DNA of 63,756 bases from Okeania sp. SIO2B3 (GTDB lineage Bacteria; Cyanobacteriota; Cyanobacteriia; Cyanobacteriales; Microcoleaceae): assembly GCF_010672525.1 (NCBI RefSeq), contig NZ_JAAHGH010000040.1, forward strand, positions 1 to 63,756, given 5' to 3'. Positions 3,378 through 41,944 of the stretch are shown here, piece by piece. Below the pieces are notes generated by a model, which was given only the letters and a program-made list of their open reading frames with translations, was not told where the DNA came from and searched no databases. Numbering within the stretch: the stretch's first letter is position 1; every line of letters starts with the position of its first letter. The position numbers and the translations under genes are program-made.

Positions 3378-4253
3378 AAAGGGGAGATGGGGAAATGGGG
3401 GGATGGGGAGATGGGGAGATGGAGAAATATTTGGTAATGGTTGAAGATGGAATATTTTTTTATACCGAATTAAACCGATTTGAGATAATTTCTATCCACT
3501 AAAAATATTGGTAGTCCTGCATAGTAACTATATAAAGAAAAAAAGAATGCTATGAATAATTTATCAAAATAATTAGGTCGCGCAACCCCGACTTTTAAGG
3601 CGAAATATTTTTGGAGCAAAGCTCAAATTCCCTACTTCCCCTCCCCTCCTGGGAGGGGGAGGGGCGAGGGGTGGGTTAACTTCTGACTTCTGACTTCGTT
3701 AACTAATGTGGCGTGTCGAAGACTATACATAAGTAGGAGTTGCTGAAAAAGTCTTTTAGTAGGGGTAGGAGACAACCCACCCGCGGGCCCCTCTCAGGAG
3801 GGGAATACAGGAGACAGGAGACAGGAGGAACGGGGAATTTAGAGTAGGTAGGAGTAACAATTGTAAGAGTGATTTTTCTGCCCAACTATGCGCCTAAAAT
3901 AGGCTCCTTTTTGAGCATGAAGAGCTGAAAACCAGGCACTTTTTAAAGGCCATAAAAAGGCTAAAGCCTTTATGTGTCAATGCTTTTAGAATTAATCAGC
4001 AAACCCTAAGTAATTATATCATGTTCCCCTTCCAGGGGAGCTGCGCTAACGGATAATCAGTTATCAAAAACTCTCTGTCTTCTAACCTTGCTCTTTCCCT
4101 TCTGCCTTCTGCCCTCAGCTCCCGCTGCCTTCTGTCCACAGATATTATAAGTATTCAACCGAACATGATATTAGACCTTCTGCCTTCTTCCCTCTTGCTT
4201 CTTCCCTGTTAACTATAATAACAAATGTAAAGTTTTACAAATAAAGGCCAAAT
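3378..4253. other. Intergenic region with repeats
   Basis: About 0.9 kb without a gene. It has a GGGGAGATG run just after the channel gene, a family H repeat at about 3561-3703, and a palindromic stretch near 3890-4020 that ends in CAGCAAACCCTAA. The latter recurs near 20935 and 21150 in inverted form. Confidence 0.6.
3561..3703. repeat. Family H dispersed repeat, copy 1
   Basis: About 143 bp running from TTATCAAAATAAT through a CGCAACCCCG block, a CTTTTAAGGCG block, the text-like CCCCTCCTGGGAGGGG palindrome, and ending CTGACTTCGTTAA. Very similar copies lie at 31328-31464 and 36439-36584. Ends are conserved, suggesting a discrete unit. Confidence 0.55.
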
Positions 4254-4931
4254 ATGCAAAATATGAGTTTAGAGCAAATATCTGTCCAACTAGATAGTGA
4301 AAATTCTCGCGATCGCCTCCTTGCCCTGGCCCATCTAAGAGAAGTATCTGCTACTAAGGCAGTACCTTTGATTAAAAAAGTATTGAATGACCCAAATTTA
4401 CCAGTACGCTCCATGGCAGTATTTGCCCTGGGTGTAAAACATACAGAAGAATCCTACCCAATTTTAGTAGAATTGTTAGAAAAAGATGCAGATTATGGCA
4501 TTCGCGCTGATGCTGCGGGGGCGTTAGGTTATCTAGAGGATATTAGAGCTTTTGAACCCTTAGCAAAAGCATTTTATGAAGATACAAGTTGGTTAGTACG
4601 CTTCAGTGCTGCAGTTTCTCTGGGAAACCTAAAAGATCCACGCGCCCATAATTTATTGATAGAAGCTTTAGATAATCAGGAGATGGTGATACAACAAGCA
4701 GCGATCGCCGCTTTAGGAGAAATTGGAGACTTAGAAGCAGTGGAGCATATTCTCAAATTTGCCCTTTCAGAAGATTGGTTAATTCGCCAACGTTTAGCAG
4801 AAGCTTTAGGAAATATGCCTACTCCTAAGAGTATATCTGCCTTGAAATATTTAGAAAAAGATAGCCATTCTCAAGTATCTCAAGCAGCAAGCATATCTCT
4901 GCAACGTTTATCTACAACAGAGAACAGTTAG
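4254..4931 (+). CDS. HEAT-repeat protein (NblB/PBS-lyase-like)
   Basis: 225 residues made almost wholly of about six HEAT/PBS-lyase repeats with the usual pattern of paired helices and conserved Ala-Leu-Gly turns (for example AAGALGYL, AAVSLGNL, AAIAALGEIG). In cyanobacteria such proteins include bilin lyase subunits (CpcE/PecE) and the phycobilisome-degradation protein NblB. The length and the all-repeat architecture fit the NblB-like group, but no phycobilisome gene is nearby, so the exact role stays open. The start ATG at 4254 is followed by a second Met four codons on (4263); either could be used. It stands alone between two repeat-rich spacers. Confidence 0.75.
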   Translation: MQNMSLEQISVQLDSENSRDRLLALAHLREVSATKAVPLIKKVLNDPNLPVRSMAVFALGVKHTEESYPILVELLEKDADYGIRADAAGALGYLEDIRAFEPLAKAFYEDTSWLVRFSAAVSLGNLKDPRAHNLLIEALDNQEMVIQQAAIAALGEIGDLEAVEHILKFALSEDWLIRQRLAEALGNMPTPKSISALKYLEKDSHSQVSQAASISLQRLSTTENS

Positions 4932-5000
4932 CAGATAGTAGACAACAGTGAGAAAAACATTTCTGGCGTTGGTGAAGCGCGTGTATGATATTAATCTTAA

Positions 5001-5285
5001 TTACTGAGGTTTTTCAGACCATAGAGTTCCATCGTTATCGAAGACAGCAATGCGATCTTTTGGTTCAACATAGTCACTGCCTTCAGTGGTGACTTTTTCC
5101 ACAAAATCTACGATCGCTTGTTTGTTGTCAGTCTGATTCCAGGAATTTAAGTAATTTTCACCAGCAGCATGAGCAGGAAGACAACCTAAAGTACCGCCTA
5201 AACAAAAAATTGAGAACAAAACCGAAAGAAAAAATGTGATAGTTTTTCTGTTGATGTTGGGAAAATTAATAATTGATTTACACAC
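5001..5285 (-). pseudogene. 5' fragment of a secreted HAD-family phosphatase
   Basis: This 94-residue frame matches the first 90 residues of the intact gene at 11239-12255. It keeps the signal peptide ending PAHAAG, the LNSW block and the catalytic DNDGT motif, then stops right after WSEKP. All other HAD motifs are missing, so it cannot be an active enzyme. The upstream flank (5286-5420) also resembles the flank of the intact copy, including a hairpin. It lies downstream of the 920-residue sulfatase, just as the intact copy lies downstream of the 604-residue sulfatase. This is a decayed duplicate of a sulfatase-HAD unit. Confidence 0.8.
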
Positions 5286-5332
5286 TTTTAAAGTAGCTCT
5301 TAAAGTAGATCAAATTATTGTTGAGAGAAAGA

Positions 5333-5373
5333 AGAGGATTTATTTTCAACAATCTTCTTGGAAACAGTCCTCT
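5333..5373 (-). promoter_or_regulatory. Hairpin between sulfatase and HAD fragment
   Basis: Arms AGAGGA (5333-5338) and TCCTCT (5368-5373) could pair. A longer version of the same hairpin lies at the equivalent place before the intact HAD gene (12293-12336). It could be an intercistronic terminator or an mRNA-stability element. Confidence 0.35.
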
Positions 5374-5565
5374 CAAATTATGCTGGCGCATACACTGTAG
5401 TGTCGTCGCGATCGCTAATCAATATAGTCTTGGGATAGGCTATGGAGTGTCAATATCTCAACACCCCACAGCTTTGCATAAAGGGAAAAAAGGAAAGTTA
5501 GCGTGCAATATAGAATCAAGGATGTGCTTCATTCTATCTTAGATTTGCATCATCTAGTCCTAGAA

Positions 5566-8328
5566 TTATTTTTCCAGCCTTTCAACGATCTCCTGAATAA
5601 TGCGATCGGTTAGCTCTCCATGACTCAGCTTATCCTCAGATTTTGTTTGCTCTGAAGACGTAAATTCCTCCTCATATGGAGCGATCTCCAATCCACCACA
5701 GTATTGAGCGGACGCGAGTGCATATTCGTATTTAGATGGATCGATATTAATCGTCACATTTTTAATCTCACCGCCTGTAAACTCGAACGGTGGTTCATAG
5801 TGCTTGCTCACCGGAAACCGCATATCCATTCCTACATCTTGGCTATCCATCATAAAGTTACCGTCAAGGATTGCGGGAATATCACCGGAAGCCACCTGCT
5901 TACCATTGACACAGAGATCGCCACTACCAGTAGGCTTGAGGTTTATTTTGGATTGAATGGGTCCCTCATCGTCGAACTTAAAGGAAAATGAAACCTGATT
6001 CAGACCATTCTTTAGTTTTTCTTTGGAACGGATCTTGGTTCGCTTCCTATTGAGATACTTGTACTCGAAGACCAACTTCTGGTTTTTGTTAACATAGAGG
6101 CTATAGCCTCCAGTATCTCCTCCTCCACTGGCTAAGATAACCCCTTTAACCTGGCGCGGTTCAGTAATATTCAGGTCTGCAGTAATGATATAGCCATTGT
6201 TTTCGGCAATGTTGGGAGCAATATCTCCAGGCAGAAAGACTGCCCCAGGATAAAACGTGAATTTGGTACGATCTTCCCAAACAGTCGGGCGATCGAGATT
6301 GACGCGTCCGCCAAAGCGATCGTCAATAGGATACACATCGTATTTTTCAGCTTCGCGATCAAACAGCGCCTTCATTTCCTGTAATTTTTCTGGGAAGGCT
6401 GCCGCTAAATTATTATTCTGACTAAAGTCTTTATCCAGATTGAACAGTTCCCACTCATCCTCTAGCTCTGGATTTTCTTTCAGGGTACTCTTTGCAAAAA
6501 TATCCCAGGGTAGCTGCCCATGGAACGACGATGCCATCCAACCATCGTGGTAAATGCCGCGATTGGCAAACATCTCGAAATACTGAGTATCCCGAAGTGG
6601 GATTGCATCTGCTCCATCAGAACCGAAGGTGTTGACAAAGCTAGCCCCTTCTATTGGCTTTTGCTCAATGCCATTGACATACTCGGGAGGCTCAATACCA
6701 ACTATATCCAAAATTGTTGGGGCAACATCAATAACATGGAGAAACTGATCCCGTAGATTCGCTATCCGAGCTTCCTTAACCGAGCGATCGTCTTTGGAGT
6801 TGGACATCTGGACTTTAATATGCTTAGGCCAAGAAACCACCATTGGATTCCGAGTGCCACCAAAGTAAGAGGCTATCTGTTTGGTCCAGCGGAAGGGAGC
6901 ATCTAGAGCCCAAGCCCAACCCACTGCATAGTGAGGAGTTGTTCCGGGATTACCCCATTCATCTTTACAGGCCAGGTTCTCGTCCGTGGTGAAGTCAAGG
7001 CCAACATAGGTCGCGCTCATATTACAGCCACCGATTAAGCCACCTTCGGCACTGGCTCCATTATCACCAACAATGTAGATAACTAGGGTATTCTCTTTTT
7101 CACCCAAGTCATCTATGGCCTCAAGCACTCGGCCAACTTGTTCATCTGTGTATTCCAGAAAGCCTGCATAGGTTTGCATTTGCTTGGTCATCAATTCCCT
7201 ATATTCATGGTTAACTCGGATTCCTTGATGGAGTGCATGAAGTGGATGATCTGGATCATCGGTAAATTTAGGGCTTCTCCAGGCTGGAATCTCCTCGGGT
7301 CGAGCCGTACATTCGGTATCTTCAGGGATGATTCCCATATCTTTCTGATTCGTACAAATTTCATCATGTAGCTTGTCCCAGCCTTCTGCAAACATCCCTC
7401 TGTGCTTTACTCCTGCTGCAATAGCATGTTCTCCCCCGGCTTCGTACTTCTGGGTATAAGAAGGAGGGGGCTGGTGGGGAGCATGGGTAGCTCCTGGAGC
7501 AAAATAGAGAAAGAAAGGGGTTTCTGGAGACAAGGAGTGGTTATAGTTCACCCAGTTAATGGCCTTATCCGCTAGATCGCGGGTGAGGTTGTAGCTATTG
7601 TCAAGGTCATTTTTGTCAGGGTAGGAAGGCTGATTTATGGGATTGCGGTTTTCATAAAGAGCGGGATACCATTGGTCAGTCTCCCCACCGCCACCGAGGA
7701 AGCCGTAGAAGTAGTCAAAGCCAAGGTCATTAGGCCAGCGGGTGAATGGACCCGCGTTACTGCTTTGCTCGGCAGGTAAGTTGTGGTTTTTGCCTAACCA
7801 AGCTGTATTATAGCCGTGGTCTTGCAAAATTTTAGCAACAGTAGCAGTGCTCTGGGGGATGAGTCCGGTATAACCGGGGAACCCAGTTGACACATCTGTA
7901 ATAGCCCCAGTAGCAGCAGAGTGATGGTTGCGACCCGTTAACAAGCCGGCGCGGGTAGGAGAACACAAGGCCGTGGTATGGAAGCGGTTGTAGCTTAAGC
8001 CATGTTCTGCCAGCTCGTTGAGGGTGGGGGTATGGACTGGGCCACCAAAGGTTTCCGAGGCACCAAAACCCACGTCATCCAACATTATCAGCACAACGTT
8101 AGGTGCACCTATAGGGAGGGCAGTAGGCGAGCTGAGAATTTCTGGATCTGGCTCTGAGTTGACGTAGGTTTTGTTAATTTTGTCGATGTAGCCTTGAAAA
8201 TCAGGTTCTTCAAGGGGCAGGTCTTGGGCCATCCCAGGGGGGACAGCCGTACCTAGCAGGAGAGAGAGTGCGATGGTAAACACCACAACCAACCTCCCAA
8301 TACGGATCAAAGTATGGTTGAAAAACAT
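5566..8328 (-). CDS. Secreted arylsulfatase, 920 residues
   Basis: A formylglycine-dependent sulfatase that hydrolyses sulfate esters outside the cytoplasm. An N-terminal hydrophobic signal peptide ends near residue 34. The sulfatase core starts with the metal-binding pair DD at about 84-85 (IMLDDVGFG). It carries the maturation signature CSPTR with Cys122, the residue converted to formylglycine, followed by GLLTGR. The C-terminal 250 residues form a beta-rich extension seen in large arylsulfatases. It is the first gene of a unit with the HAD fragment downstream, and a divergent AraC gene starts at 8805. The maturase is encoded at 10046-11047. The natural substrate is not apparent. Confidence 0.92.
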   Translation of the reverse strand: MFFNHTLIRIGRLVVVFTIALSLLLGTAVPPGMAQDLPLEEPDFQGYIDKINKTYVNSEPDPEILSSPTALPIGAPNVVLIMLDDVGFGASETFGGPVHTPTLNELAEHGLSYNRFHTTALCSPTRAGLLTGRNHHSAATGAITDVSTGFPGYTGLIPQSTATVAKILQDHGYNTAWLGKNHNLPAEQSSNAGPFTRWPNDLGFDYFYGFLGGGGETDQWYPALYENRNPINQPSYPDKNDLDNSYNLTRDLADKAINWVNYNHSLSPETPFFLYFAPGATHAPHQPPPSYTQKYEAGGEHAIAAGVKHRGMFAEGWDKLHDEICTNQKDMGIIPEDTECTARPEEIPAWRSPKFTDDPDHPLHALHQGIRVNHEYRELMTKQMQTYAGFLEYTDEQVGRVLEAIDDLGEKENTLVIYIVGDNGASAEGGLIGGCNMSATYVGLDFTTDENLACKDEWGNPGTTPHYAVGWAWALDAPFRWTKQIASYFGGTRNPMVVSWPKHIKVQMSNSKDDRSVKEARIANLRDQFLHVIDVAPTILDIVGIEPPEYVNGIEQKPIEGASFVNTFGSDGADAIPLRDTQYFEMFANRGIYHDGWMASSFHGQLPWDIFAKSTLKENPELEDEWELFNLDKDFSQNNNLAAAFPEKLQEMKALFDREAEKYDVYPIDDRFGGRVNLDRPTVWEDRTKFTFYPGAVFLPGDIAPNIAENNGYIITADLNITEPRQVKGVILASGGGDTGGYSLYVNKNQKLVFEYKYLNRKRTKIRSKEKLKNGLNQVSFSFKFDDEGPIQSKINLKPTGSGDLCVNGKQVASGDIPAILDGNFMMDSQDVGMDMRFPVSKHYEPPFEFTGGEIKNVTINIDPSKYEYALASAQYCGGLEIAPYEEEFTSSEQTKSEDKLSHGELTDRIIQEIVERLEK

Positions 8329-36580: not shown

Positions 36581-36584
36581 TTAA
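36439..36584. repeat. Family H dispersed repeat, copy 3, touching the precursor stop codon
   Basis: About 146 bp from TTATCAAAATAAC to CTGACTTCGTTAAT. The conserved right end GTTAA includes the TAA stop (complement of 36581-36583) of the precursor gene. Unlike the other two copies it has an extra CTTCTGACTT block. Confidence 0.6.
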
Positions 36585-36766
36585 TCTGCGTCACCATCAT
36601 AGGAACATCTGTAAGGCCGGTTCCTCCTGGCACCTTGTGGGGCTATTCCCTCTCTGGAGGCGAAACCAGTAGTCAGGTTTTCTTCTTCAAGTCCCTCTAT
36701 AGGTTTTTCAACGTTCAAGCGAATCACAGGCTCTTTCTGTTGTGGCATCAGATTTTTCTTGGCCAT
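36581..36766 (-). CDS. Cyanobactin-type precursor peptide (61 residues)
   Basis: The product has the parts of a cyanobactin precursor. The leader begins MAKKNLMPQQKEPVIRL, very like the MNKKN.LPQ..QPVIRL start of PatE/TruE. IEGLEEENL (residues 23-31) matches the heterocyclase recognition element LAELSEEAL and the EELREENL of the trichamide precursor. The C-terminus CSYDGDAD holds the SYDG macrocyclase signal right after Cys54. The core would end at Cys54 and begin after Ser37 (FAS) or Gln44. It contains GARRNRPYRC, with four Arg and a single Cys. A good AGAGGA lies eight bases before the ATG at 36766. The heterocyclase gene is 445 bp upstream on the same strand. The stop codon sits on the end of a family H repeat. 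Confidence 0.85.
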   Translation of the reverse strand: MAKKNLMPQQKEPVIRLNVEKPIEGLEEENLTTGFASREGIAPQGARRNRPYRCSYDGDAD

Positions 36767-37211
36767 CGGATTATTCCTCTGTGTATTTTGAGCTTAATTT
36801 GCTTGAATTTTAGGCTTCTAAGTCACTACTGTCAAGCTTGGCTTGGCGAGCCATCAGGTATAAAGTTGTGTGGCTTTGTCATCCGCCAAGAAATTTATTT
36901 CTTGGCTCACAGCAGAAGTCATATCATGTCCGGTAGCATCGGTCTTGTATAGAGAAGGTAAGGAAGACCGAAGTTGGAAGAAGGAAGAAGCTTTAAGAAA
37001 AGGAAAAATTTTACTTATATAGCGGCAGATATTTCCCCAACTTTTACACGGGACTATACCAACGGAGATGATATCATCTTTAGATGGCTAAAGATAGCTG
37101 ATTTATTATGGCTAATTAATGAGACTTGATATTATACCTTAAAACTCCCTCTTCTTCCCTCCTGACTCCTGAGGACTGACTCCTGACTCCTCTATTATTT
37201 CGGACATGATA
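36767..37211. other. Spacer between heterocyclase and precursor genes
   Basis: 445 bp with MITE C copy 2 (36922-37073) and text-like repeat pieces. No gene. A promoter for the precursor, if separate, should lie at 36775-36920. Confidence 0.55.
36922..37073. mobile_element. MITE family C, copy 2
   Basis: 152 bp with left end TATCATGTCCGGTAGCATCG and right end TATACCAACGGAGATGATA (one base off). The interior differs from copies 1 and 3 in part. Confidence 0.65.
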
Positions 37212-39530
37212 TTAAAATACCATCGGCATTGAATTCATCTGTTTTTCCTGCAATGCTTCAGACAACCAACCCATTTTCACAGGTACATCATACAATCTAC
37301 CCCTCCCAAACCGCGGCCAAAAATGGCGTAACCCAGGCACAATAACTTTCACCACATTTAATTCAATATCTGGGCGAGTCTGCTCCAAAACTAAAGTTTC
37401 CATTCCTGCTGCTTGAGCAATTTTCACACAAGTCAAAACATCTTCATAAATGTCATCACTCCAAACCAGAGGATAATCTCCATAAACTTTGGCTGGTATT
37501 TCTGGGTGGGGAGCTAAATAAGGTTGATTTTCTAAAGTTGCTGTGGTGATCCATTCCTGCATCCCTTCTTCCATTTGACTAACATCTTCTTCATCTATTC
37601 CCAAACCAATCTGATTAAGTTCTGTCACCGCTCGCAGCATGGCAATTTTGGGGTCAAAATGCGCTCCAAAACCTGTAATAATTCGTTCATACTCCCGATC
37701 AATTCGACGGGAAACTGCGCTAAAAGCTGGTATCCCCAAATCTGTTGTTAAATCTAACACCCACAACTCGCGATGATTTTGTTGATAAAATTCTTGCACT
37801 GCCAATAAATAGGAGTCGTCAAAACTGGCTAAATCTACTGATGGACGCTTCAGGCGATTGTACCACCAAATTGCTACACTATCGCGCTCTACTAATTCCA
37901 TAAATCCTTGCAAAATTGCTTCTTCTATGGTATTGCCCGCAGCGTTGCCATTAGAATCAGCTATACAGAAATTATGGTTTGTGGGCAAGTTATAAGCATA
38001 ATAACACCAAGCTGTAGGCAAGTATTTACGAGTATCTTCTGTGAGGGACCATACTGGAGTCCAATCAATTTTTTTGCTGGCATTAAAAGGTTGGGGAATC
38101 CAATCGCAGTCTACTTTACTTTTGGCATTCAACTTTTTGCGGTTTGCATACTGAGTAGGGCTGAAGTGCAAAAATTTTTCTGGGTGAATAGCTTTTTCTC
38201 CCAATTCAGCTAAAGTTAATTTTTTTCTGGGTTCGTCTCCTTGGAATATTCCTGAATAACGTTCGATCGCTTCACAAAAACCACTAGCTTTAGCTTGGCG
38301 ATCGCTTTTGCCTTTTCCTCCACTTTTATGACTAAGGGAACGACGTAAAGCACTGAGAGTTTTGGCACTACCGAAACTATGAATAGCATTGTAGGTATGA
38401 ATTAAAGGATTATTTGGGTCGGAGGTTGGTACTAAAGCACTGACAACTCCAGTAATGGGACTTATCAGTTGTTCGTAGCGTTTTGTTGTTTGGTCGGGAG
38501 TGAATGCGCGATGACCGCCATCAGAGGTAAAATGTTTTTGGCGACTGGTGAGAGTCAGGGGATAAAATGCCATGTCTTTGAGTAATTTAGGATCGCCACA
38601 AGCTTGACATTGAGGTCTTTTACTCAAAATATGAGTTTCTGTGGTCAGGTTGGTCTGGTTAAAGGTAATTACTTTTCCCGCGAGGGTAGTAAAGTTAGGC
38701 ATTTCCACCCCACATCTTTGTACTATCCATTTGGCAACTTCAGTGGTTATTAGATTGATAGCAGTTGCCATAGTTGAGGGTAGGAAACCAAAAGAAGTAG
38801 GTAGACATCCAGAAATTTCTCTTTTACTCGCACTAGATTTTTTGGTGGAAGGAGATTTCTGTTTTTGTCGCAAAACAGCAGCTTCAACTTCCCGATGACC
38901 GCGCAAACGTTGAGCTAAACATTCCCAACATCCGGTATCTTCTGGTTCAAATATTGGACCTAACCACAGTAACCCTCCCACAGGTTTTGCCAGCAACCAA
39001 GGTTGATGAGCGCAGACTGCGGTTTCATTGATTTTCGCAAGTTGTGGTTGTAGGTAGTCATCGGTGAGAACAACTAATAGTGCGTTGCGGTCTGATGTTA
39101 GTGGGTAATTTTCCCAAAGCTTGGTTTTAATACCTATTGCTGTCAAATTTTCGATTAATAAATCTGTGGTTGTTTCTCCTACTGAGGCGACATAAACTGA
39201 GATTTTCTGGAGATATTCGGAGGCGAGTTGTGGTTCTACATTGAGTAATGACCAAAATGCAGCGACTGGTTGGGGGAGTTGGGGAGTTGCTTTGGTTAAA
39301 TAACCTTTGTTGTGGAGGCGATCGAGAACATATTCGATTTGTTCTGAGTCTGCTATTTCTGATAGGGTTTGGCAAATTTCTTCAAAGGTATGTTGACCGT
39401 CTAATAGGGGAATTAGGTGACAATAAAATTCTCCTGTTAGGGCGTGAGTTGAATTTTCTCCTAAGAGGTAAACGTGCTTTGGTTCGATAATTTCGATGCG
39501 AAAATGTGGTTTAATTTGTGGATTTTGCAT
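37212..39530 (-). CDS. Cyanobactin heterocyclase (PatD/TruD-type YcaO cyclodehydratase)
   Basis: Converts Cys, Ser or Thr of a ribosomal precursor to thiazolines or oxazolines using ATP. The 772 residues follow the TruD plan throughout. Residues 1-85 are the leader-binding domain (FRIEIIEPKHVYLLGE). Residues 86-320 are the E1-like part with zinc ligands Cys201/Cys204 (CWEC) and Cys308/Cys311 (CQAC). From about 335 on is the YcaO domain with ATP-binding acids in GFCEAIERYSG and NTIEEAILQGFMELVERD. The end MNSMPMVF departs from the PTPMPF of TruD, losing two of three prolines. The precursor gene lies downstream on the same strand. No protease, macrocyclase or prenyltransferase is in the window. 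A repeat array begins about 65 bp upstream. Confidence 0.93.
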   Translation of the reverse strand: MQNPQIKPHFRIEIIEPKHVYLLGENSTHALTGEFYCHLIPLLDGQHTFEEICQTLSEIADSEQIEYVLDRLHNKGYLTKATPQLPQPVAAFWSLLNVEPQLASEYLQKISVYVASVGETTTDLLIENLTAIGIKTKLWENYPLTSDRNALLVVLTDDYLQPQLAKINETAVCAHQPWLLAKPVGGLLWLGPIFEPEDTGCWECLAQRLRGHREVEAAVLRQKQKSPSTKKSSASKREISGCLPTSFGFLPSTMATAINLITTEVAKWIVQRCGVEMPNFTTLAGKVITFNQTNLTTETHILSKRPQCQACGDPKLLKDMAFYPLTLTSRQKHFTSDGGHRAFTPDQTTKRYEQLISPITGVVSALVPTSDPNNPLIHTYNAIHSFGSAKTLSALRRSLSHKSGGKGKSDRQAKASGFCEAIERYSGIFQGDEPRKKLTLAELGEKAIHPEKFLHFSPTQYANRKKLNAKSKVDCDWIPQPFNASKKIDWTPVWSLTEDTRKYLPTAWCYYAYNLPTNHNFCIADSNGNAAGNTIEEAILQGFMELVERDSVAIWWYNRLKRPSVDLASFDDSYLLAVQEFYQQNHRELWVLDLTTDLGIPAFSAVSRRIDREYERIITGFGAHFDPKIAMLRAVTELNQIGLGIDEEDVSQMEEGMQEWITTATLENQPYLAPHPEIPAKVYGDYPLVWSDDIYEDVLTCVKIAQAAGMETLVLEQTRPDIELNVVKVIVPGLRHFWPRFGRGRLYDVPVKMGWLSEALQEKQMNSMPMVF

Positions 39531-39570: not shown

Positions 39571-39594
39571 GAAAATAGGGAATAATAGGAAAAA

Positions 39595-41944
39595 TATTTT
39601 CCATTCCAGATATTTTGCCATTCTAAATATTTTCCGATTCTAGATATTTTGTCATTCCAGATATTTTTCGTTCCAGATATTTTATCATTCCAGATATTTT
39701 ATCATTCCAGATATTTTTCGTTCCAGATATTTTGCCATTCCAAATATTTTCCGATTCTAGATATTTTCCAAATATTTTCCGATTCCAGATATTTTCACAT
39801 TCTAAATATTTTCCAATTCCAGGTATTTTATTATTCCAGGTATTTTATTATTCCAGATATTTTCCGATTCCAGATATTTTCCGATTCCAGATATTTTATC
39901 ATTCCAGATATTTTTCGTTCCAGATATTTTGCCATTCCAAATATTTTCCGATTCTAGATATTTTCCGATTCTAGATATTTTGCCATTCCAGATATTTTAT
40001 CATTCCAGATATTTTGTCATTCCAGATATTTTGTCATTCCAGATATTTTGTCATTCCAGATATTTTCCGTTCCAGATATTTTGCCATTTCATATATTTCC
40101 CGTTCCAGATATTTTCCGTTGCATATATTTCCTGTTCCAGATATTTTCCGTTGCAGATATTTTGCCATTTCATATATTTCCCGTTCCAGATATTTTCCGT
40201 TGCAGATATTTTGCCATTTCAGATATTTTCCCGTTCCAAATATTTCCGATTCCAGATATTTCCCGTTGCAGATATCTCCCGTTGCAGATATTTTCCCGTT
40301 GCAGATATTTTGCCATTTCAGATATTTTCCCGTTCCAGATATTTTCTTTTCCGATTCCAAATATTTTCCAATTCCAGATATTTTCCCGTTCCAGATATTT
40401 CCGATTCCAGATATTTTCCGTTGCAGATATCTCCCGTTGCAGATATTTTCCGTTGCAGATATTTCCGATTCCAGATATTTCCGATTCCAGATATTTCCGA
40501 TTCCAGATATTTCCGATTCCAGATATTTTCCCGTTCCAAATATTTCCGATTCCAGATATTTCCCGTTGCAGATATTTTCCGTTCCAGATATTTTGCCATT
40601 TCATATATTTCCCGTTCCAGATATTTTCCGTTGCAGATATTTTGCCATTCCAGATATTTCCGATTCCAGATATTTCCCGTTCCAGATATTTTCCCGTTCC
40701 AAATATTTCCCATTCCAGATATTTTGCCATTCCAGATATTTTCTTTTCCGATTCCAAATATTTTCCAATTCCAGATATTTTCCCGTTCCAAATATTTCCG
40801 ATTCCAGATATTTCCCGTTGCAGATATTTTCCCGTTCCAAATATTTTCCCGTTGCAGATATTTTCCCGTTCCAAATATTTTCCCGTTGCAGATATTTTGC
40901 CATTTCAGATATTTCCCGTTGCAGATATTTTCCCGTTCCAAATATTTCCCATTCCAGATATTTTCCCATTCCAGATATTTTCTTTTCCGATTTCAAATAT
41001 TTTCCCATTCCAGATATTTCCCATTCCAGATATTTTGCCATTCCAGATATTTTGCCATTCCAGATATTTTCCCGTTCCAAATATTTTCCCGTTGCAGATA
41101 TTTTGCCATTTCAGATATTTCCCGTTGCAGATATTTTCCCGTTCCAAATATTTCCCATTCCAGATATTTTGCCATTCCAGATATTTTCTTTTCCGATTCC
41201 AAATATTTTCCCATTCCAGATATTTTCCCGTTCCAAATATTTCCCATTCCAGATATTTCCCGTTGCAGATATTTTGCCATTTCAGATATTTTCCGTTGCA
41301 GATATTTTCCCGTTCCAAATATTTTCCCGTTGCAGATATTTTCCCGTTCCAAATATTTCCGATTCCAGATATTTCCCGTTGCAGATATTTTCCCGTTCCA
41401 AATATTTCCGATTCCAGATATTTTCCCATTCCAGATATTTTCTTTTCCGATTCCAAATATTTTGCCATTCCAGATATTTTCCCATTCCAGATATTTCCCG
41501 TTGCAGATATTTTCCCGTTGCAGATATTTTCCCGTTCCAAATATTTCCCATTCCAGATATTTTCCCATTCCAGATATTTCCCGTTCCAGATATTTTGCCA
41601 TTTCAGATATTTCCCGTTCCAGATATTTTGTCATTTCAGATATTTTCCCGTTCCAGATATTTTCCCGTTCCAGATATTTCCCATTTCAGATATTTTGCCA
41701 TTTCAGATATTTTCCGTTCCAGATCTTTTGCCATTCCAAATATTTCCAGTTCCAGATATTTTGTCATTTCAGATATTTTCCGTTCCAAATATTTCCAGTT
41801 CCAGATATTTTGTCATTTCAGATATTTTCCATTCCAAGTATTTCCCATTCCAGATATTTCCGATTCCAGATATTTTGTCATTTCAGATATTTCCCGATTC
41901 CAGATATTTCCCATTCCAAATATTTTCCCATTCCAAATATTTTC
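39595..41944. repeat. 2.35-kb minisatellite of degenerate 16-19-bp units
   Basis: The stretch is one continuous array of units on the theme TTCCAGATATTTTCC, with variation at a few positions only. CCAGATATT, GCAGATATT and CCAAATATT alternate, as do linkers such as CCGATT, CCCGTT, GCCATT and GTCATT. By length it holds roughly 130 units. Blocks of several units recur as higher-order repeats. It is open in all three plus frames and much of the minus strand because no register of the unit contains a stop, so the long frames are not evidence of coding. It lies between the STAND gene and the heterocyclase start. Confidence 0.93.

Follow-up and report, generated by a model that had tools for sequence, protein, structure and literature searches.

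Trichamide is the described cyanobactin whose pathway most resembles the one treated here. Judged from passages of a review (PMC4663559) and from a cluster in genome G153 that is taken as that of Trichodesmium, the trichamide (tri) pathway has no PatF, its oxidase is not fused to PatG, and its single-core precursor carries EENLT and CSYDGD blocks; its D, A, G, B, C and E genes lie in one cluster of ~12.5 kb, with a separate ThcOx-type oxidase. Here, a precursor gene (E) and a PatD/TruD-type heterocyclase gene (D) of Okeania sp. SIO2B3 (RefSeq assembly GCF_010672525.1) were analysed. They lie on contig NZ_JAAHGH010000040.1, which was used over its full length of 63,756 nt and is called the window; it is contig C185 of a draft genome of 10.0 Mb in 249 contigs (G000). 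The window probably (at about 80%) carries the precursor and heterocyclase half of a trichamide-type cyanobactin pathway that is split between unlinked loci in Okeania. The genes are described below by content, arrangement, constraint and one case of joint decay, and the reactions and the compound would follow those of the characterised family.

The Okeania genes resemble tri in having homologues of D, A, G, B, C and E, a single-core precursor with both blocks, no PatF found and no oxidase fused to PatG. Unlike tri, A, G, B and C are unlinked from D and E in Okeania, the oxidase is fragmentary or was not found, E is downstream of D, and the core is rich in arginine with one cysteine. The full-length fused cyclodehydratase, N-terminal protease and macrocyclase belong to the same families as those of patellamide/trunkamide-type cyanobactins (PatD, LynD, TruD; PatA; PatG), from which Okeania differs in that no PatF was found, PatG has no oxidase domain, there is a single core and the genes are unlinked. 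According to parts of PMC4603692, components of the heterocycloanthracin and prochlorosin pathways also act in trans from unlinked loci; there the precursor is remote from its modifying enzyme, whereas in Okeania the precursor and heterocyclase are together and the proteases are elsewhere. Among the full-text matches listed, which leave most subscription papers outside their scope, no title concerned an Okeania cyanobactin or a split cyanobactin cluster. Cyanobactin genes usually lie in one cluster of ~10-12 kb, an arrangement not needed for function; those of Okeania do not. Mining of single gene neighbourhoods would rate each Okeania locus as incomplete or orphan and miss the product. An apparently working set (all but the trichamide-type oxidase) is kept under constraint here with its loci unlinked.

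Counts for Okeania refer to five assemblies of the window's genus: the window's genome, SIO1I7, SIO3B5, SIO2C9 and O. hirsuta. The reference was a trichamide-type cluster in genome G153, of 12.5 kb and with the order G, B, C, A, E, oxidase, DUF433/ParD-like gene, D. It is taken as the Trichodesmium trichamide cluster, as its length, gene content and 11-residue two-cysteine core fit passages of the review (PMC4663559). SIO3I5 (G281/G388) is labelled with the genus of G153 and not with the window's; in a part of PMC7825088, Trichodesmium is placed inside the Okeania clade, near SIO3I5.

Precursor and heterocyclase genes in the window

Both genes were found where the sequence-only reading had placed them, on the same (minus) strand, with the heterocyclase gene upstream of the precursor gene and a gap of 445 bp between them. 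The precursor gene (36581..36766, minus strand) encodes 61 amino acids with a single core. Its open reading frame (ORF) has the KKN...P leader and matches PF19155/DUF5837 at 38.8 bits, above the cut-off of 25; the matches to NF042906 ("cyanobactin class RiPP", 56.9 bits, cut-off 75) and TIGR03678 (29.8 bits, cut-off 39.6) are under their cut-offs. The same core, or one with two residue differences (GSRRNLPYRC in SIO2C9), is found beside patD in SIO1I7, SIO3B5 and SIO2C9; in O. hirsuta, the fourth other assembly, the gene is broken. The ratio of nonsynonymous to synonymous substitution rates (dN/dS) of the precursor is 0.12-0.25 (6 pairs, 4 sequences). Because it is kept beside patD in three other Okeania with such ratios, the ORF is not a chance one, and the profile match and this conservation uphold its identification as a cyanobactin precursor.

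The putative recognition block for the heterocyclase, IEGLEEENL (residues 23-31, 36674..36700, minus strand), was assigned as RSI-like (recognition sequence I) by its position, by the corresponding block of related precursors, with which it lines up by eye, and by the PatE-type motif. The RSI concept itself was taken from a passage of PMC4663559. The other parts were assigned by comparison with seven related precursors, five of them from one genome. SYDGDAD (residues 55-61, 36584..36604, minus strand) is a clear C-terminal recognition site (RSIII): in 7/7 relatives the core ends in cysteine and is followed by [SN][YF]DG. Directly before the core, 6/7 relatives have G-[LIV]-[A/N]-x-x, and the trichamide-type precursor has GPGPS at this position; GIAPQ (residues 40-44, 36635..36649, minus strand) would thus be the N-terminal protease recognition site (RSII). 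The predicted core, GARRNRPYRC (residues 45-54, 36605..36634, minus strand), is flanked by protease sites on both sides and ends in the only cysteine of the precursor.

The heterocyclase gene (37212..39530, minus strand) encodes a full-length fused ATP-dependent cyclodehydratase of 772 amino acids of the PatD/TruD type. Profile matches place a winged helix at residues 5-79, a leader-binding region of the thiazole/oxazole-modified microcin (TOMM) type at 176-363 and a YcaO domain at 405-735. The protein matches YcaO (337 bits), TIGR03604 and TIGR03882, and it matches MusD (7u58), LynD (4v1t) and TruD (4bs9) over its full length (E ≤ 1.1e-301). It is 82% identical to D of the G153 cluster. FastTree with midpoint rooting (support values not inspected) was applied to 35 D-like proteins of the fetched loci, among them some near-duplicates and one partial sequence; in the resulting tree, D of Okeania groups as sister to that of G153 and SIO3I5, within the cyanobactin clade. 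The heterocyclase thus does not belong to a non-cyanobactin group. The likeness to trichamide that had been suggested from the closing blocks of the precursor is borne out by this placement and by the EENLT and CSYDGD blocks common to the Okeania and trichamide-type precursors. For D, dN/dS is 0.17-0.19 (3 pairs), and catalytic-motif residues are kept by eye in the alignments of D, A and G.

The second YcaO of the genome, on contig C59, was considered as the partner of the precursor and rejected: it falls in a separate clade of the tree and is part of a different gene cassette.

Starting 64 bp upstream of patD is an array of ~140 copies of a 17-bp unit (39594..41944), with several frames open on both strands. 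It may lie outside the pathway; similar sequence is found upstream of patD in SIO1I7 and SIO2C9.

Genes outside the window, their linkage and their decay

The sequence-only reading had found no PatA-like protease, PatG-like macrocyclase or PatF in the window. For PatA and PatG in the window this stands, as 0/13 matches in the genome fall on C185; both are encoded in the same genome on contig C181, and PatF was not found in the genome either. Two adjacent full-length TIGR03895 proteins (954 and 887 bits) are encoded on C181. The first (C181:8860-10839, 659 amino acids) is a PatA-type N-terminal protease with 4h6w as its best solved match (448 bits). The second (C181:11430-13724, 764 amino acids) is a PatG-type macrocyclase without an oxidase domain, matching 4h6x (345 bits), 4aks and the PatG DUF 4uvq; it aligns along the PatG macrocyclase domain, including the insert that is absent from its matches to PatA-type chains. 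By eye, D, H and S of the subtilase motif are kept in the C181 protease alignments. PatB-like (L016:14386-14580) and PatC-like (L016:14887-15066) ORFs follow the pair. Identities to the G153 cluster are 83% for A, 80-84% for G, 86% for B and 50% for C, and dN/dS is 0.06-0.19 for A and 0.24-0.28 for G (3 pairs each). The suggestion that the remaining genes are encoded elsewhere was therefore correct; the other option offered, a minimal heterocyclase-precursor unit without the rest of the pathway, is rejected because A and G were found on C181.

A match on contig C19 was considered as a broken PatA/PatG of the same pathway and set aside because it is only about 30-34% identical, which points to another family. 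Three of the five Okeania carry a third PatA/PatG-family protease apart from the other two (G323:C33:431720 in SIO1I7, G311:C212:32653 in SIO2C9 and G294:C46:23119 in SIO3B5).

The distance from D/E to the nearest A or G is at least 33 kb in the window's genome (24.2 + 8.9), at least 94.7 kb in SIO1I7 (65.7 + 29.1, rounded) and at least 54.5 kb in SIO2C9 (52.6 + 1.9), where A is also ~72 kb from G; these are lower bounds between contigs because the assemblies are drafts. In SIO1I7 and SIO2C9 the split is seen on contigs of 105-422 kb, and in SIO3B5 and SIO3I5 the contigs are too short to judge it. That a single cluster was broken by misassembly is hardly credible. Draft assemblies, and a long tandem array beside patD that makes a natural break point, would allow for it, but the same neighbourhoods recur in separate assemblies. 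In the window, pieces located between ~18 and ~62 kb, D/E included, are conserved in SIO1I7 and SIO2C9 next to the same genes, the A/G neighbourhood is partly conserved as well, and the contigs extend at least 24 kb past D/E on both sides in these two genomes and the window's.

Linkage was surveyed in 388 genomes sampled from the order, 40 of which have an NF042906 match at E ≤ 0.01. In 27/40 a precursor and a YcaO gene are no more than 20 kb apart, so that precursor homologues do occur near other PatD-type genes, and 22 of these 27 also have an A/G-family protease that close to one of their own precursors. A precursor with D and no A/G within 20 kb was found on long contigs in the window's genome, SIO2C9 (G311) and SIO1I7 (G323), on short contigs in SIO3B5 (G294) and SIO3I5 (G281, which also has precursors beside A/G), and in G108; the unlinked exceptions on long contigs are thus Okeania. 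No precursor is near A/G at all in G000, G311, G323, G294, G108, G173, G211, G279 and the broken G302 (O. hirsuta). The count omits the 8 weakest YcaO rows, protease rows after G294:C206 (mostly second pieces of counted proteins) and G388 rows (G388 and G281 being one genome); on rereading, none of these adds a D linkage, and none is 20 kb or less from a precursor in any of the nine A/G-unlinked genomes.

Outside Okeania, contig G084:C4 has a PatA/PatG-family protease ~380 kb from where a precursor, D and a further protease of that family lie on it, and there may be partial splitting in another genus too (G084; perhaps also G185 and G042). In the single-contig genome G279 (C1), FAGDDAE-type precursors are ~1.24 Mb from a PatA/PatG-family protease pair.

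The ThcOx-type oxidase is complete in G153 and SIO3I5, and remnants of 39-48 residues were found in only 2/5 Okeania: a fragment of 39 residues with 95% identity in SIO1I7 (G323:C33:585130-585261) and one of 44 residues with 84% identity, in a stretch with a stop, in the window's genome (G000:C184:300767-300910). It was not found in the other three, beyond distant matches (26-30% identity over ~140-170 residues), which are not taken as the oxidase of the pathway because of that distance. The oxidase fossils are at a further locus, ~2 kb from sequence of which SIO1I7 has another copy immediately downstream of patD. A search for synteny between the fossil and the sequence flanking the G153 cluster gave no dc-megablast match of >150 bp. 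PatF was found in 0/5 Okeania and 0/2 of the G153/G281 group, with 2/2 positive controls found; a passage of PMC4663559 gives trichamide as normally without PatF. The DUF433/ParD-like gene had no match in the Okeania loci searched. The ancestor of the Okeania pathway was probably a contiguous cluster of the kind seen in the Trichodesmium relatives.

In O. hirsuta, genes at both loci are damaged. The precursor frame stops early and the core is lost, only residues 230-399 of D remain with no YcaO domain, G is interrupted by two stops and its N-terminal part is missing, B is truncated, and neither a genome-wide search at E ≤ 1e-60 nor tblastn at the G locus found an A. Joint decay at two unlinked loci, though a single case, is the best sign that they belong to one pathway.

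This loss also fits the idea that the split and the missing oxidase mark a decaying remnant that is being lost and yields no product, as does the oxidase, a fossil in two Okeania and not found in the other three; insertion-disrupted, inactive cyanobactin clusters are known in Microcystis, according to part of PMC3428304. Decay is nevertheless very unlikely for the window's genome, SIO1I7 and SIO2C9, where the frames of E, D, A and G are intact, dN/dS is far under 1 and the catalytic-motif residues are kept.

Predicted product and the second precursor

In the preferred reading of a split trichamide-type pathway, PatD would bind the leader and convert the single core cysteine to a thiazoline. 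PatA, from the other locus, would then cut after GIAPQ and free the N-terminus, and PatG would remove SYDGDAD and close the ring to cyclo-(GARRNRPYR-thiazoline). As the proteases would act in trans, linkage would not be needed for function. The ring would stay a thiazoline because there is no oxidase; loss of the oxidase predicts thiazoline, not thiazole, in the product. This predicted cyclic decapeptide contains four arginines and one thiazoline. Computed masses are 1211.621 for the cyclic thiazoline ([M+H]+ 1212.628) and 1209.605 for the cyclic thiazole, which gives an exact mass to search for. The case also allows proteases in trans, and their sharing between precursors, to be tested. Such a compound is plausibly new. 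The same way of reading, applied to the trichamide-type precursor, gives an 11-residue core with two cysteines, in agreement with the core given for trichamide in a passage of the review (PMC4663559). An earlier cut, after GFAS, is less likely, since the relatives have their sites at the position of GIAPQ.

A lone anacyclamide/piricyclamide-type precursor that ends in FAGDDAE was found at C228:201848-202024 (L017:9848-10024, minus strand), matching TIGR04446 at 45.8 bits (cut-off 35). A near-identical lone ORF, under the PF19155 cut-off, is present in 5/5 Okeania and is intact in O. hirsuta. In a quite unlikely alternative, the window's precursor, once modified by PatD, would be trimmed by a general protease, giving a thiazoline peptide that is linear or partly cleaved, and the unlinked PatA and PatG would serve the anacyclamide/piricyclamide-type precursor. 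The lack of linkage between D/E and A/G, and the second precursor with its recurrence in all five Okeania, speak for such a division. Against it, the window's precursor keeps RSII- and RSIII-like blocks and a core that ends in cysteine like a macrocyclase substrate, A and G closely resemble the proteases that work with similar D and E in another cluster, and the second precursor has stayed intact in O. hirsuta, the genome with broken G, D and E and without an A found. An unlinked PatA/PatG pair that serves both precursor classes in trans, the D/E precursor and the lone one, is doubtful but conceivable. If so, cyanobactin biosynthesis would act as a service to the whole genome instead of a cluster, and D/E would be a movable heterocyclase-plus-substrate cartridge.

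Several points weigh against a split trichamide-type pathway. The precursor does not reach two of its three family cut-offs (NF042906 and TIGR03678), and its dN/dS values come from pairs that differ at ≤17 codons. The boundary of the core was set by comparison, and with a cut after GFAS the core would have 17 residues. The separations, taken from draft assemblies, are only lower bounds. G has the weakest signal of purifying selection, with ~48 extra linker residues in the window's genome, and the A/G pair might serve the PirE-type precursor on C228 instead. For O. hirsuta, the PatC-like ORF is still present, the N-terminal side of D may be cut by the contig edge, A was sought genome-wide only at E ≤ 1e-60 besides tblastn at the G locus, and the joint decay is one case.

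A second PatD-like clade

A second clade of PatD-like YcaO proteins (D2), 43-50% identical to PatD, is represented at C59 in the window's genome (L018:359-1423, minus; 1867-2979, minus; 3710-6025, plus) and at loci L140, L169-L180 and L181-L188. Neighbouring genes encode proteins of ~340-400 amino acids with no Pfam or NCBIfam match where tested, which have a tail of PYPY[IL]P[LM] (once PFPY) followed mostly by serine, threonine or cysteine; they may be substrates of unusual size, open to heterocyclisation at the C-terminus. The PYPY tail is present in 12/12 loci L169-L180, the motif having been defined after examples had been seen, and it is absent from the copy at G000:C19. Relatives were found in 15/291 genomes. 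D2 loci also have a ~1930-amino-acid kinase/AAA/GAF protein that resembles TOMM_kin_cyc below its cut-off. At eight loci fetched with wide flanks (8 of the 15 genomes), the kinase is within 2 kb in 8/8 and D2 within 2 kb in 6/8, and in G173 and G281 the tail protein and D2 are on different contigs. Two other D2 loci have small ORFs like NHLP/nitrile-hydratase leaders, under the family cut-offs, at L159:12506-12850 (minus strand, G084:C1) and L164:12641-13084 (minus strand, G096:C13); ending in ACC or ACAC, these are candidate TOMM precursors.

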